Assembly: GCF_021568795.1 (NCBI RefSeq)
Contig: NZ_JAKGUE010000002.1
Coordinates: 124,001 to 188,000 of the forward strand
DNA from: Dethiosulfovibrio faecalis
Lineage (GTDB): Bacteria > Synergistota > Synergistia > Synergistales > Dethiosulfovibrionaceae
DNA: 64,000 nt
Direction of reading: 5' to 3'
Positions 19,606 to 26,862 of this stretch are shown one piece after another. The translations under genes were made by a program, and so were the position numbers. The first letter of the stretch is position 1, and each line of letters starts with the position of its first letter. Under the pieces are notes generated by a model. It searched no databases. It was given only the letters and a program-made list of their open reading frames with translations, and was not told where the DNA came from.

Positions 19606-20061
19606 ATGATCCTTTTCGACATCGATTTTTGTGGACCGGAAGACGGCCCAGCTATAGTCGATATAGACCTTCGTTCCAATCGGAATCCCTGGCCTTTGCC
19701 CTCTGTTATGGACGATCTCAGAAACCGTTCGGGAGAGATGGTGTACATGGGTGCTTTCAAAAAAGATATCCTTCTGGGCTTTATCGCCCTCGAGCGAAGA
19801 AGAAAACTGGTATGGATCATGCAACTGGCGGTCTCGCCCGATTGGCGAAGGTTCGGTATAGGAGAGCAGCTTCTCTGTTCCGCCTACGCCATAGGGGAGG
19901 AGTGGGGATGCCGTGGGGTCGGCCTTACCGTGAGAGTCTCCAATTCAGGGGCCAGAGCTCTTTACCAAAAAAACGGTTTCGTCCAAGGAGCCATCTTGCC
20001 GGGATATTACGGCGACGGCGAGGATGGAATCAGGATGCAGAGGAATTCGTTAATTACATGA
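19606..20061 (+). CDS. rimI: GNAT acetyltransferase, RimI-like
   Basis: Probable ribosomal-protein-S18 alanine N-acetyltransferase or a related protein N-terminal acetyltransferase. The ATG is preceded by TAGGAGGAG. The 151-residue protein has the GNAT fold: the acetyl-CoA motif A in LAVSPDWRRFGIGEQLL with the R/Q-x-x-G-x-G/A loop (RRFGIG), and the RimI-like C-terminal VRVSNSGARALYQKNGFVQGA with the conserved Asn and Tyr. The substrate cannot be proven from sequence; rpsR, the classic target gene, is elsewhere in this window. It lies after purA with a terminator between. Confidence 0.82.
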   Translation: MILFDIDFCGPEDGPAIVDIDLRSNRNPWPLPSVMDDLRNRSGEMVYMGAFKKDILLGFIALERRRKLVWIMQLAVSPDWRRFGIGEQLLCSAYAIGEEWGCRGVGLTVRVSNSGARALYQKNGFVQGAILPGYYGDGEDGIRMQRNSLIT

Positions 20062-20195
20062 CAACATCGAAGCTTTATTCGCCTTTTCTCTCATGGTTTA
20101 AGTTTTTTTTGCCGAAAATAAAAGGAGTTGACTCACACTAGAGGGTAGTTATCTATTCTTAGTTCCCTTTTTCTCAGGGTCTTTCGGACCATTCA

Positions 20196-20222
20196 TTTAG
20201 GACTTATTCAAGTAGTCGAAAA
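20196..20222 (+). promoter_or_regulatory. Candidate flagellar sigma-28 (FliA) promoter for flagellin
   Basis: TTTAGGAC-N11-GTCGAAAA resembles the sigma-28 pattern TAAAGTTT-N11-GCCGATAA (6 of 8 in the -10 part, only 2 of 4 in the TAAA core) with exact spacing. It lies about 100 bases before the flagellin start. A lone TATAAT at 20268-20273 without a good -35 is an alternative. The rest of the 263-base gap 20062-20324 is AT-rich and holds nothing else I recognise. Confidence 0.35.
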
Positions 20223-20324
20223 ACTGATGGGATGATACAAATATATCGTATCCGTTTTATCTAGTCTTATAATTTTTCTACGAGACAGGGAAGTCTTGTG
20301 TCCTTTTGCATGGAGGTGTGGAGG

Positions 20325-23300
20325 TTGCGTATCTATTCGAACATAGCTTCTTTGATTTCACACAACGCGCTATCTAAGGTCAACGGCCGTCTTGAAAAGA
20401 CCACCAGACGGTTATCCACGGGGCTGAGGATCAACTCGTCCTCCGACGACGCAGCGGGACTGGCCATCTCGGAGAAGATGCGGGCTCAGATAAAGGGGCT
20501 GGATCGGGCCGCAATGAACTCTCAGGACGGAATATCGTTGCTTCAGACCGCCGAGGGCGGACTGAACGAGATCCATTCCATGATCCAGAGGATGAGGGAA
20601 CTGTCGGTCCAGGCGGCCAACGACGTCCTCACGTCCGGAGACAGGGGGCACATTCAGGACGAGATAGAGCAGTTGGTGCAGCAGGTCAACGATATAGCGA
20701 ACCAGACCCAATTCAACAGAAAAAAACTTCTCAACGGCAGTATGGCGGCTCTGTGGAGCACCTCCACGTCGGACATAAGCGTGGTAGTATCCGACAACCT
20801 GCTTACCAAGGACGTGATGAACAACGTCAAGTCCGCTGCTGGAAACTACAAGCTCACCTTCAGCACCGTTTCGAACGGTATGGAGAACATTCAAAAGAGC
20901 AACATAATGTACCTTAAGCACGGAACTCACGAGGCCAGCGTGGTCAACAACGCAGAGGGGTCCGGTCTCGTCGGTATGACGGCACTAAACATGGTCGAGG
21001 GTATATGGAATTTGGAAACTAGAGAACACCCTTTCGGTGGTATCCGCTACTATGTGGGAAATGCGAACTCCGATCCCCCCACCGTCGGAGGATCTCTCGA
21101 GGTTTCACCTACTCCAAACATAGTTTCTCCCGGCACTTACGATGTCAGACTATCCGACAGGGTCCCCATGATGGCCGACTTCGACGCGGCCCTCGCCGCC
21201 GGAGTGGTTGAGGGGGTCAACATGAGCAGTCGGGCGGCCGGTTCCAACTTCGACGCCGAGATCGCCGTGACGGCCAATGGTGGTGGTACGCCTTCCTCCT
21301 CTCAGGTTTACCGAAGCGATTTGAGCGGGGGAGGAACGGTAAACGCATCGGGTGCTGCTGGCGATGTATCCGTCGGAACCAACGCCAACAACGGGGTGAA
21401 CCTCTTCACTCATTACGCCGTCACCGGCACCGACCGTAGAGACCTCATGGCGGGCGACATAAACCTGACCGAGAGGTACGTCACACACCAAAACGCCGCC
21501 ATGACGGTCAACCTGGACTATCAGTCCAGCACCGATACCGACGCTACAATAACTTACTACACCTCGACGGCGGGAAATTCGATAAACGTTACCTCCCACT
21601 ATAGGACCCTCGCTGGAGCCAACCTCGACATAGGGGGAACCATAGTAAACATCGGCGGCATGGACATGGACGGCATAGCGGGAGCGATCAACGGAGCGGG
21701 GATAGCCGGATTTTCAGCGTCGGTCCAGGGAGCGGGAGATACCAGGTACATAAGGCTACAAAATTCCACAGGAGGAGCTCTGACCGTGACCGAAAACGGG
21801 GTCGGAACCCATGGCCTGGGACTTAACGGTAATATCAATAACGGTGCGATCCGCAACGGAACCGCCAGGGACTACAACAGGACCTTCACGAGCAACCTCA
21901 ACAATATGACCCTGTCTAACATAGCGACAACCATAACGGGAGCTCCATCCAGCGCCTTCTCCGCCGCGGTTGCAGGAGGAGGAGCGGTCCAGGGCAATGT
22001 CGTCGTGACAGGACACCAGAACTACGACGTCACAGTAACCACGGCGGGCAACGTTGCCGGAGAGCTGTCCCTGGACTCCGGCATAAACGGAGGAGGAAGC
22101 CACACGTCCACCGGCGTATGGGACGGCAGGACGACGACCATAGGGACATCGGGAGATAACCTGAGTACCATGGCCACTAACCTCCAAAACGGGGTAAACG
22201 CCGTCATAGGTGGAGGCTTTACCGTAGCCACCACCACGGCAGGAGCTCTCCACGGTCTCACAATGGCGAACGGCACCAACTATCGGGTGGTACTGGACGG
22301 GACGTCCATAAACGAGCTAGTCACGGGCAACTACGCTCCAGGTACGATGTCGATAAACAGAGGCAACCTTCTCGCCAACACCGGTAACAAGGTCTACGTG
22401 AATCACGACGTGGTCATAAACGTCGGGGATCGAGATGCCCTAGGAATTGTCTCGGCCCTGAATACCGGGATCAACACGGCATTGGGTTCCGACGTGCTGA
22501 GCGGTAACAACGGTCTGAACCCGTTCTCCACCGTGGCTGGTGCTCAAAACAGGACGGTTCGCCTCTCCAACGGCTTAAATTCGGGATACAAGATAGACAT
22601 AACAGCCGGTTCCGACGGCTCATTGGCGGAGGTATGGGGGGGAGCCATAACCACCGACAGAGGCGTCAACGACGACGGAAACTTCCTTGATTACGATAGG
22701 ACGTCGACCATAGCTGTTACGGGCATGAACATGGAGGAGGCCTACGCCGCCATAGACGGCGACGCCAGATTCTCCACCGCCTGGCTGACCGAGCCGGAGC
22801 ACGCCGCTCCGCAGCATTACGGGCGTATGTCCATAACAAACGTCACCACAGGCGCCGACCGACGCAGGATATCGATGACCCAGGCTGGAGTCGACCAAGG
22901 TGACGTGGTGGACTCCAACAGAAAACTGTTTGAGTCAGCCGGTCCTATATGGTCCTCCAGCGAGAGCAGTGGAGCAGCGGTCGCCAACTCCCAGACCCTT
23001 CAGGCTCACGATAGAATGACAGTTCAGATGACATGGGACGGGAACAGGGCCTCCAACGCATCGAGGGTAAACGGTACAGCCTCCGCGACGATATGGGAGG
23101 GTGGCTTCGGCAGCGGAACCTCGGCTGAGAACGCCGCAGCGGTGACAGCAGCCATGGGTATCGCCGGGTTTTCCTACGATAGTTTTTCCATAGACGACGG
23201 AGATATCCATGGTTCGGATTTGGCTACTAACGATTCTTGGATGACCTACACCAAGGCGGAAGTAGTCGGTGTCAGCGATAATCTGGGGCTTAGTCTCTAC

Positions 23301-26156
23301 GATGGTCTTTACACCGATGCAGGGAATAATTTGGGTGTGACCAACGGAATAACATATTCGTTCAACGACGGAGTTTTAGACAACAGTTCGATAGCCATAA
23401 ACCAGTTGGTCCGCAGTGCCGCCGGTATCGGAGGTTCCGCCAGCCTGACCCATAACGTCGATTTCGGAACGGTCGACAGCAATACATCTTTTACCTACGG
23501 GGAGAGATCTGGAGCTGGTACGTACTGGGGAAACACCGCCGGTGTCGATTCCTGGTATTCTCATTCCTATTATGCCGGGGACAGTACGTATTATTTCGGT
23601 AACGGAGGAACTCCGGCCAGCATGATATCCAGCGCCGAGGTCTACAGACAGAACGACATCAATGCGTCTATGATGTTCGAGTTCGATAACGGCGTGTTAT
23701 CGGTGAGGGCAAAGGGGTTCGACCGAAACGGCACGGAGCTTCCTGCCACCGCCGACACGGTGGCCTACGAGCTGACAGCGGCGGAGTTTGCTAGCCTCTC
23801 GGCCGGAGCTGACATAACTCTGCACGGCGTTCATTTCACCGATCTTCAGATAGACACGGCCAATCTGAAAGCGGGGGACAAGTTCGTCATAAACGTGGCG
23901 GCGGCGGCCAAATTGGATGCCGTCAACACCGGACCGGCCATCGCGGGAAACTTTCAGTCCACTGCCAACATCGCCATAGACGGAGACCCATTTCGTCAGA
24001 ATAGCCCCGGAAACTGGGGGGCTCTGGCGCAATATCGTCTGGCCGACGGAGCTGAAAACGGAAAGAACCTGAACCTCCTGGGCTACTATATCGATCCTCT
24101 CAACGGTAGCAGCGATATCCCCGGACTGGGATACTACAACGGTACCCTCATCCTTCAGGCCGAGGCAGGGGGTTTTAACGCCGGGAGTACCGTAGGCGTG
24201 CCTGGAAACGACGATGGTGGCTCTCATAGGATAACGGCGGAGATAAACTATCAGGGCGACACGAAGCCATCCGCCGGGGCCTTGGTCACCAGTTGTTATT
24301 TCGGGAAGATGGAAAAAGGCGAGACCAAGGATATAAAGAGTTTCCTCGGGGGAGTGGGGTACTCAAACTATGTCTACGGTACCAGGTCTGACGGTACCTA
24401 CGGTCCTTTGAACGAGGCCGGATCGGAGGAATACAACAAATACAACGGTTCCCTGATCTTCGACGTCATAGAGACGGAAAATCAGGTCGTGAAGTTCAGA
24501 ATACAGGGACACGTAATAGATCGTGAGGGCAATGAGTGGTACGTACAGGAGGACGAATACGGAATGAACTGCGGGCCTAACACGGCCCAGGACTCTTCCG
24601 TTCAGCCCCCCATCATCCCTGCGGAGGTAACGAATCCGTTGGTTCTTTTCAGAGATTCAGAGTTCGGAGGCCTCTTCTTCGATGAGTTCACCCTGGGGGA
24701 TTTCGAGAACTGGACCGATGGGGACAGATTCACCCTATCCTTGACTGCCAGTGGCTTTGAGGACGGTTTTAGCGAGAACGACCAACAGACCGATCCGGCG
24801 CTTCAGCCCGATATAGATGAGATAGACCTGTTCTCCGACAACAGGGGTACCAATATGCCCCACGCATTCCGCTTCGACGAGGGAGTGTTGGATAATTCCA
24901 AGGTAGATTTGGGGATATACCAGCTGGCCAACAACATAGCTAACCCTTCTGGGGGTAACTTCCATAAGAATCAGGTGATGGATGGCACCTTGTCCCTGAT
25001 GTTCGATGATTATCATCCCGACGGAGACGATGTCATCGATGACGCGTTGTCCTTCGATGTTATATACGAGGAAGGTATGGATGCCGGTAAGGCCCATTAC
25101 TACAGTCGTGTCGAGGATATCGCTCAGTTCTACGATGCCAACGGAAGGTATATCCTAGACGGTAATATGGAATCCCTTACCGTTCGGCAGGATGATCGAG
25201 AGATATCCGTGTCTCTTGGCTCCACGGCGGAGATCGGCAAGCTAGCGGAGGATATTTCCGAGCAGATATGGTTGAAGTTGATGATGCAAAACGACGGACA
25301 GCTGAGGGACGAGGATGACACGGTGCCCTATGGCTATAGTCCTGGCCTGATGGACGAGAGGGATAAAAACGAGATACTCCAGTTCGTCAACAAAGTCCCA
25401 GGAGAGAGCGCGAACGAGTCGGTGGTCTCGACTCTTTTGGCCCATTCGGTGATATCCGGAAAGGACAAACAGCTTCATTTTTACGGAAGCGAGGATCTGA
25501 TGAAGGCTCTGGGTTTTGCCACAATACAGGAGGCCGAGGAAGCGCAGTTCCGATTGACCGTATCGGATGCTCACAACGGGAAGACCGTCTCCAGCGGTAC
25601 GAAAGTTCAGGCTGGCGACAGAATCTCCGCTGTGATAGCCGATGGCATCTCCCTGGATATATCAGGCGATATAGGGTTGAACCGGGTGGTCTACAACGAT
25701 GGAAGGGGAACCTTCGAGGGCGATCGTAACTCGGTATTCGAGCATTACGTTCATCTGGCGGATAATTCTGCCTTCCTTCAGATAGGAGCCAACGAGGGGG
25801 AGGACGTCGATCTTCATCTGGGAGATATGTCCTCAGAAGCCCTTGGAATAGACGGTCTGGACGTGAGGACCAGGGAAGAGGCAGCAAGGAGCATAACGGT
25901 GTTGGACAGCGCTCTCGATTCTGTCTCGTCTCAAAGAGCGATAATAGGAGCCCAGATAAACCGTCTGGAGCACACCATAACCAACCTGGACACGGCGTCT
26001 TTGAACCTGACCGCCTCCAGATCAAGGATCGTGGACGCCGACCTAGCGAAAGAAATGATGGAGTTCACAAAACTTAATATACTGGTCCAGTCGGGCATGT
26101 CGGTTTTGGCGCACTCGAACCAAACCCACGAGAACGTGTTGAAGCTTTTGAGCTAA
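20325..26156 (+). CDS. Giant flagellin (about 1,943 residues)
   Basis: Structural subunit of the flagellar filament. I chose TTG 20325, 6 bases after GGAGGTG; the frame is open a little further upstream but flagellin homology starts here (IYSNIASLISHNALSKVNG). Residues about 1-150 are the conserved D0/D1 helices, including IQRMRELSVQAAND, the segment recognised by TLR5 in other flagellins. The last about 110 residues are the C-terminal D1/D0 helices, ending NILVQSGMSVLAHSNQTHENVLKLLS in part. Between them lie about 1,600 extra residues. Residues ~430-855 hold about five repeats like the flagellin hook IN motif. Residues ~1000-1570 hold duplicated beta modules (DGVLDNS copies). The only two cysteines are in the outer region (TSCYFG, GMNCGP). 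No HExxH protease motif is seen. Typical flagellins have 250-600 residues. Confidence 0.95.
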   Translation: MRIYSNIASLISHNALSKVNGRLEKTTRRLSTGLRINSSSDDAAGLAISEKMRAQIKGLDRAAMNSQDGISLLQTAEGGLNEIHSMIQRMRELSVQAANDVLTSGDRGHIQDEIEQLVQQVNDIANQTQFNRKKLLNGSMAALWSTSTSDISVVVSDNLLTKDVMNNVKSAAGNYKLTFSTVSNGMENIQKSNIMYLKHGTHEASVVNNAEGSGLVGMTALNMVEGIWNLETREHPFGGIRYYVGNANSDPPTVGGSLEVSPTPNIVSPGTYDVRLSDRVPMMADFDAALAAGVVEGVNMSSRAAGSNFDAEIAVTANGGGTPSSSQVYRSDLSGGGTVNASGAAGDVSVGTNANNGVNLFTHYAVTGTDRRDLMAGDINLTERYVTHQNAAMTVNLDYQSSTDTDATITYYTSTAGNSINVTSHYRTLAGANLDIGGTIVNIGGMDMDGIAGAINGAGIAGFSASVQGAGDTRYIRLQNSTGGALTVTENGVGTHGLGLNGNINNGAIRNGTARDYNRTFTSNLNNMTLSNIATTITGAPSSAFSAAVAGGGAVQGNVVVTGHQNYDVTVTTAGNVAGELSLDSGINGGGSHTSTGVWDGRTTTIGTSGDNLSTMATNLQNGVNAVIGGGFTVATTTAGALHGLTMANGTNYRVVLDGTSINELVTGNYAPGTMSINRGNLLANTGNKVYVNHDVVINVGDRDALGIVSALNTGINTALGSDVLSGNNGLNPFSTVAGAQNRTVRLSNGLNSGYKIDITAGSDGSLAEVWGGAITTDRGVNDDGNFLDYDRTSTIAVTGMNMEEAYAAIDGDARFSTAWLTEPEHAAPQHYGRMSITNVTTGADRRRISMTQAGVDQGDVVDSNRKLFESAGPIWSSSESSGAAVANSQTLQAHDRMTVQMTWDGNRASNASRVNGTASATIWEGGFGSGTSAENAAAVTAAMGIAGFSYDSFSIDDGDIHGSDLATNDSWMTYTKAEVVGVSDNLGLSLYDGLYTDAGNNLGVTNGITYSFNDGVLDNSSIAINQLVRSAAGIGGSASLTHNVDFGTVDSNTSFTYGERSGAGTYWGNTAGVDSWYSHSYYAGDSTYYFGNGGTPASMISSAEVYRQNDINASMMFEFDNGVLSVRAKGFDRNGTELPATADTVAYELTAAEFASLSAGADITLHGVHFTDLQIDTANLKAGDKFVINVAAAAKLDAVNTGPAIAGNFQSTANIAIDGDPFRQNSPGNWGALAQYRLADGAENGKNLNLLGYYIDPLNGSSDIPGLGYYNGTLILQAEAGGFNAGSTVGVPGNDDGGSHRITAEINYQGDTKPSAGALVTSCYFGKMEKGETKDIKSFLGGVGYSNYVYGTRSDGTYGPLNEAGSEEYNKYNGSLIFDVIETENQVVKFRIQGHVIDREGNEWYVQEDEYGMNCGPNTAQDSSVQPPIIPAEVTNPLVLFRDSEFGGLFFDEFTLGDFENWTDGDRFTLSLTASGFEDGFSENDQQTDPALQPDIDEIDLFSDNRGTNMPHAFRFDEGVLDNSKVDLGIYQLANNIANPSGGNFHKNQVMDGTLSLMFDDYHPDGDDVIDDALSFDVIYEEGMDAGKAHYYSRVEDIAQFYDANGRYILDGNMESLTVRQDDREISVSLGSTAEIGKLAEDISEQIWLKLMMQNDGQLRDEDDTVPYGYSPGLMDERDKNEILQFVNKVPGESANESVVSTLLAHSVISGKDKQLHFYGSEDLMKALGFATIQEAEEAQFRLTVSDAHNGKTVSSGTKVQAGDRISAVIADGISLDISGDIGLNRVVYNDGRGTFEGDRNSVFEHYVHLADNSAFLQIGANEGEDVDLHLGDMSSEALGIDGLDVRTREEAARSITVLDSALDSVSSQRAIIGAQINRLEHTITNLDTASLNLTASRSRIVDADLAKEMMEFTKLNILVQSGMSVLAHSNQTHENVLKLLS

Positions 26157-26190
26157 CGTCGTCTTTTTCATTCTACTTGGCGTCTTCTCT

Positions 26191-26730
26191 ATGAAGATAT
26201 CGACTTTTAGGACCGACAAATTATCCTCCGAAATTCGTGGAGACATTCTAGAGCTTTGCTCCCTTGCCTTTGGAAGCCCTTTTGATGAATTATTCGACTT
26301 TGTGGGGACCTCCGGAGTTCACGTTATATTGCACGATAACTCGGGAGGTCTCTCATCACATTGCGTGGTTACCGAGAGGACTTTTTGGATTGGAGATCGT
26401 TCTCCGATGAGGGCGGGATATATAGATGCCGTTGCTACCCGTCCTAATAAACAGGGATTGGGATATGGCCGTGCCGTTATGGCCGAATCTTGCCGTGTTT
26501 GTAAGTCTATGGGTATGAATATTATGGGGCTGTCTACTTTTATTCCTGAATGGTACGGGTCTATGGGGTGGAGGGTCTGGCGTGGGGAACTCGGGCTCAA
26601 AAAAGGGAGCGAGATTATCCCGGTGTCTGATGTAGACGGAGTAGTTATGCTCTACGGACTCGATAATTCGTTCTCTTTGAACCTGTCTCAGCGGTTGATA
26701 GCCACATGGCGTCCTAACGGTGGATGGTAG
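26191..26730 (+). CDS. GNAT acetyltransferase resembling AAC(2')
   Basis: A 179-residue acetyltransferase starting 34 bases after flagellin; no clear Shine-Dalgarno is visible before ATG 26191. The acetyl-CoA motif is AVATRPNKQGLGYGRAVMAE (Q-x-x-G-x-G-like loop QGLGYG). The overall plan resembles the aminoglycoside 2'-N-acetyltransferase/Eis group: MRAGYIDAVATRP, then STFIPEWYGSMGWRVWRG, then a C-terminal DVDGVVMLYG strand. The real substrate is unknown, and I do not claim resistance. Codons are more AT-rich than in neighbouring genes (many ATT, TCT, TTT), which may mean recent acquisition. It is followed by a terminator. Confidence 0.78.
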   Translation: MKISTFRTDKLSSEIRGDILELCSLAFGSPFDELFDFVGTSGVHVILHDNSGGLSSHCVVTERTFWIGDRSPMRAGYIDAVATRPNKQGLGYGRAVMAESCRVCKSMGMNIMGLSTFIPEWYGSMGWRVWRGELGLKKGSEIIPVSDVDGVVMLYGLDNSFSLNLSQRLIATWRPNGGW

Positions 26731-26749
26731 ATGGTAATTCAATTTGAAA

Positions 26750-26779
26750 AAGGGCTCCGGCGATTTCGCCGGAGCCCTT
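26750..26779. terminator. Bidirectional terminator between GNAT gene and tRNA-Val
   Basis: A 13-bp perfect stem AAGGGCTCCGGCG / CGCCGGAGCCCTT with a 4-base loop. A-rich sequence on the left gives a T-tract for the minus-strand tRNA transcript; for the plus strand the T-run is weak. Confidence 0.88.
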
Positions 26780-26787
26780 GCTGTTGT

Positions 26788-26862
26788 TGGTGGGCGACAC
26801 TGGGTTCGAACCAGTGACCCCTTCCGTGTGAGGGAAGTGCTCTTCCGCTGAGCTAGCCGCCC
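26788..26862 (-). tRNA. tRNA-Val (anticodon CAC)
   Basis: On the minus strand a full cloverleaf is readable: acceptor GGGCGGC/GTCGCCC, D-arm with TAGCTCAGCGG, anticodon stem CTTCC/GGAAG around loop CTCACAC (anticodon CAC, valine GUG codons), T-arm with GGTTCGAACC, discriminator A and an encoded CCA. It has its own promoter and terminator. Confidence 0.97.

Follow-up and report, generated by a model that had tools for sequence, protein, structure and literature searches.

A giant second flagellin with repeated outer modules in Dethiosulfovibrio faecalis

What is a protein of 1,943 residues that begins and ends as a flagellin, and what might so large a subunit do for the cell? We studied these questions for a gene of Dethiosulfovibrio faecalis within a 64,000-nucleotide stretch of DNA (the window; coordinates below refer to its forward strand, +, unless another locus is named). 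The genome holding the window (G000; 2.67 Mb, 43 contigs, 99.7% complete) was compared with other Synergistota genomes, denoted by G-numbers, among which G001 is probably D. peptidovorans and G059 probably Aminomonas paucivorans. The gene spans 20325-26156. Its reading frame is unbroken over 20298-26156, a ribosome-binding site (GGAGGTG, 20312-20318) can be read 5' of the TTG start codon at 20325, and the product is computed to be an acidic protein of 205 kDa with a net charge of -117 and a pI of 4.5. Pfam matches above cut-off to Flagellin_N, the N side of D0/D1, at residues 3-139 (20331-20741; 1.5e-41, 142.2 bits) and to Flagellin_C at residues 1858-1942 (25896-26150; 3.8e-23, 82.1 bits) confirmed the original prediction of a giant with ordinary flagellin ends, and a Pfam scan of the whole protein revealed no family beyond these two. 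Flagellin models score higher than FlgL models, identifying the protein as a flagellin rather than FlgL, and a separate FlgL-like gene sits on contig C21 of the same genome. With its 1,943 residues, the protein belongs to the giant flagellins as defined by more than 1,000 residues and a large outer region (Thomson et al. 2018).

The gene is located away from the flagellar cluster. Within the genus it is flanked by a GNAT gene and a gene for tRNA-Val (window 20061-26862); outside the genus the neighbours differ and no partner is conserved. The slot itself is variable, holding the giant in three genomes of the genus and other genes in G003 and G004 (L117, L118), those of G003 resembling by eye a membrane-bound hydrogenase operon. 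Elsewhere in the window, two long frames of 606 and 620 aa (window:3737-5557 and window:50658-52520) matched no Pfam family at E 0.001.

Full-length orthologues of 1,941-1,975 aa and 57-97% identity were found in other Synergistota (G001 97%, G005 84%, G017 and G041 65% each, and G059, with 1,941 aa, 58%), and G002 of the same genus has a partial orthologue of 82% identity. A profile search with the middle region, a search of the kind proposed in the original prediction, detected relatives in 26 of the 188 Synergistota genomes, representing 13 of 63 genera, and the region resembled no Pfam family and, in a profile search, no solved structure (best E 2.4). The 18 complete family members range from 1,577 to 2,137 aa. 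The same middle-region search found no giant in three genomes of the genus, G003, G004 and G006, and the protein is thus not required for flagellation in general.

Where present, the gene is under purifying selection. The dN/dS ratio was 0.08 between G000 and G001 and 0.15 between G000 and G005, with each 200-codon block at or below 0.23 in the latter comparison. The insert is included in this pattern (0.06-0.23 in 200-codon blocks over residues 201-1800, against G005), constraint being strongest at both ends of the protein and weakest at residues 401-600. As synonymous changes greatly exceed amino-acid changes along the whole gene, the giant protein is maintained. A fusion, an assembly error or a decaying gene might be suspected from the variability of the slot, where in sister species the same neighbours enclose other genes, but the frame and length are the same in independent assemblies of other species and, together with the dN/dS values, exclude both chance and sequencing error; for practical purposes, conservation and selection refute such an origin, and we give it almost no credence. 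The unbroken frame and orderly modules that the original prediction had taken as evidence against a chance fusion are thereby upheld.

The giant is a second flagellin of these bacteria. In the giant-bearing genomes that we examined in detail, an ordinary flagellin of about 775 aa is encoded as well, close to FlgL, and G059 has two in tandem beside the giant. In G000, only the first 53 codons of the ordinary gene are found, at the end of contig C21 and 98% identical to those of G001; as the remainder is missing from the assembly, the gene should not be taken as absent from the strain. The giant is about 2.5 times the size of the ordinary protein and has in common with it residues 1-230 (20325-21014; 49-54% identity) and 1595-1942 (25107-26150), with residues 1590-1860 matching at E 2.7e-50. 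The excess over the ordinary flagellin is thus about 1,170 residues, and 1,718 residues lie between the Pfam ends; the large insert foreseen by the original prediction is real, and its figure of about 1,600 residues is corrected by these values.

The neighbourhood of the ordinary gene on contig C21 has features of its own. Between FlgL and the ordinary flagellin lies a gene for a 904-aa MptE-like/Maf-type protein (PF01973; L036:263-2977, -), for which an identity as FliD was rejected, the protein being Maf-like. Maf proteins glycosylate flagellins in other bacteria, and the flagellins here may by analogy be glycosylated. FlgL (1,029 aa, L036:3713-6802) and FlgK (857 aa, L036:6816-9389) are far larger than those of E. 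coli, and the open frame of FlgE has 670 aa (L120). Genomes of the order that lack the giant can also have a large FlgL, whose size therefore does not track the giant.

The middle of the giant consists of several distinct parts. Residues 231-431 (21015-21617) are specific to the giant family, with no homologue detected outside it. Residues 434-862 form a tandem array of five repeats, each ~87 residues long (pairwise E 4e-10 to 2e-4), located at 434-520 (21624-21884), 521-603 (21885-22133), 604-686 (22134-22382), 690-786 (22392-22682) and 788-862 (22686-22910). The repeat domain is found in G000 at E 9e-17 or better, although these sequences helped to build the repeat model. Four repeats are present in members of 1,806-1,868 aa, five in the core group and up to seven weak ones in the longest, and a search with the repeat model found none in three members of 1,577-1,713 aa; protein length thus changes with the number of repeats, but not with the repeats alone. 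Pfam Flagellin_IN gave no match to the repeats, and a lead that they may represent the flagellin/FlgL "IN" motif comes from a weak similarity to FlgL (E 3e-4 to 3e-3).

Profile comparison of the giant with 23 ordinary flagellins identified two modules homologous to the ordinary outer domain: module A (residues 1112-1303; 23658-24233) corresponds to ordinary residues 261-451 (E 2.1e-7) and module B (1373-1619; 24441-25181) to residues 261-470 (E 2.8e-20). An independent self-comparison of the giant shows the same pair. A partial outer module (947-1060; 23163-23504) resembles a portion of module B (residues 1448-1562; E 3.9e-6) and had no direct match to ordinary flagellin; as a further lead, residues ~1130-1222 show a similarity to FlgK D3 that falls below the cut-off (E 0.005). 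Whereas the ordinary flagellin, for example that of G001, has one outer domain and no tandem repeats, the giant has two and the repeats. The giant probably grew from an ordinary flagellin of the ~775-aa type whose outer domain was duplicated and into which the five-copy tandem repeat was inserted; the homologies are a sequence-level result, from which we infer the direction of change from ordinary to giant. In a tree with FlgL as outgroup, which is effectively unrooted (outgroup branch length 10), a single branch (85/83) separates the giants from other flagellins, and this fits one ancient split. The fold prediction advised in the original prediction was less rewarding: AlphaFold2, applied to two halves (7 and 5 alignment rows), gave no usable fold (pLDDT 49.4 and 37.8, pTM <0.3).

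A sigma28-like promoter, TCATG followed by GCCGAAAA (20091-20118), starts 234 bases upstream of the giant's start codon, with a spacing equal to that of ordinary flagellin promoters. Similar sites of equal spacing are found upstream of most giant orthologues and ordinary flagellin genes, the best site reaching p <=0.01 in five of seven giants, 0.03 in G067 and a nonsignificant ~0.1 in G001. The scoring matrix was written after inspection of these sequences, and the promoter is therefore considered supporting evidence only.

The reading that we favour, and regard as fairly likely, is that of a second, giant flagellin transcribed by sigma28 that forms a thick outer shell on the filament or part of it and has a mechanical or surface use. 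The protein would probably be transcribed by sigma28 together with the other flagellin, be exported via the flagellar secretion system and polymerise by its standard D0/D1 ends; these are complete and constrained, which makes polymerisation likely. By analogy, the giant would assemble into a thick filament, the ~1,170 extra residues per subunit over the ordinary flagellin giving a thick acidic outer shell on the filament or part of one. The Salmonella filament is 24 nm wide, and outer-volume scaling from it and from Bermanella suggests, as a rough estimate, that a filament made only of the giant would be ~35-55 nm wide. The likeliest use, and the weakest step of the proposal, would lie in the mechanics or surface of the filament, which would be stiffer, thicker or different in its interactions and would serve alongside the ordinary one or replace it; outer-domain contacts of other flagellins have been linked to swimming in viscous media (PMC10256154). 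Against this stand the position of the gene away from the flagellar cluster with no conserved partner outside the genus, the lack of the giant in G003, G004 and G006, the weak promoter score in G001, and A. paucivorans, probably G059, which has an orthologue although the species is reported to lack both motility and flagella (PMC3035310). D. peptidovorans, probably G001, is motile with lateral flagella (PMC3035263).

The presence of an ordinary flagellin in the same genomes would also suit a minor or positional role, the giant being made in small amounts, restricted to a short part of the filament at the base or tip or sprinkled among ordinary subunits, and acting mainly in adhesion to surfaces, particles or hosts, a function served by outer domains of other flagellins (PMC10256154). 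The insert contains no known adhesin domain, however, and the sigma28-like promoter is much like the ordinary gene's and gives no hint of weak expression, although a promoter is no measure of expression; we consider this role possible but rather unlikely. Flagellinolysin (NF033876), like the giant, is a flagellin with a large inserted middle, and one is probably present in the sister species G003 and G004, raising the idea of a hydrolase within the insert. The HExxH motif was nevertheless found in none of the 18 giants, NF033876 scored 68 bits, best in the C-terminal part and far under its cut-off of 205, and the insert has neither a Pfam enzyme domain nor, by sequence, a relative among solved structures. 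These results rule out the giant as a flagellinolysin and make an enzymatic flagellin highly improbable. The sister-species proteins, in two genomes without the giant, are flagellins of 911-912 aa with an HEMVH motif (G004, L044:6995-9733; G003, L045:10272-13007); that of G004 scores 249.9 bits with NF033876, above the cut-off, and both are probable proteolytic flagellins.

In a more far-reaching version of the favoured reading, a system of two flagellins would extend across the phylum: the giant, as an ancient paralogue enlarged step by step through copies of the outer domain and tandem repeats, would form a functionally distinct and very thick filament (~35-55 nm) next to the ordinary one; we regard this version as doubtful. 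Both flagellins are found in a genus that has motile species in culture, and the giant is missing from close relatives, so that comparing them can test what the giant does to filament width, stiffness and swimming; as relatives differ in repeat number, they also form a natural series of sizes. The case would also show the duplication-then-insertion route in a phylum distant from the gamma-proteobacteria, for which this route has been published.

Giant flagellins as such are already known. The original prediction placed them in a few marine gamma-proteobacteria and regarded this one as longer and in a different lineage, but they have been listed from many phyla, including Synergistetes with Aminomonas paucivorans (Thomson et al. 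2018, PMC6248924). The protein is indeed longer than the 120 kDa one of Bermanella marisrubri, although relatives reach 2,137 aa; the lineage is not new, as G059 carries an orthologue and the D. faecalis giant is thus probably orthologous to one already listed. The identity of G059 as A. paucivorans is our inference; its protein is 58% identical over the full length, and the genome, which would be that of a species reported as non-motile, has the two tandem ordinary flagellins. The Oceanospirillales giants of B. marisrubri and Oleibacter marinus share with ours the ordinary D0/D1 ends, a large outer insert and growth in which an outer region was first duplicated and another insert then added (PMC6248924), the likeness to their DE/DX type being in the duplication pattern only. 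The B. marisrubri giant is the filament protein by mass spectrometry, and the two giant-flagellin species measured had thick filaments of at least 30 nm (Thomson et al. 2018, PMC6248924). B. marisrubri and O. marinus each have a single flagellin, seen as a 120 kDa band in the former, whereas the giant studied here has 205 kDa, a five-fold repeat and a separate ordinary flagellin. Our analysis adds to this knowledge the ordinary flagellin that accompanies the giant, an outer domain in two copies together with tandem repeats, the distribution of the giant across the phylum, and evidence that it is under selection.
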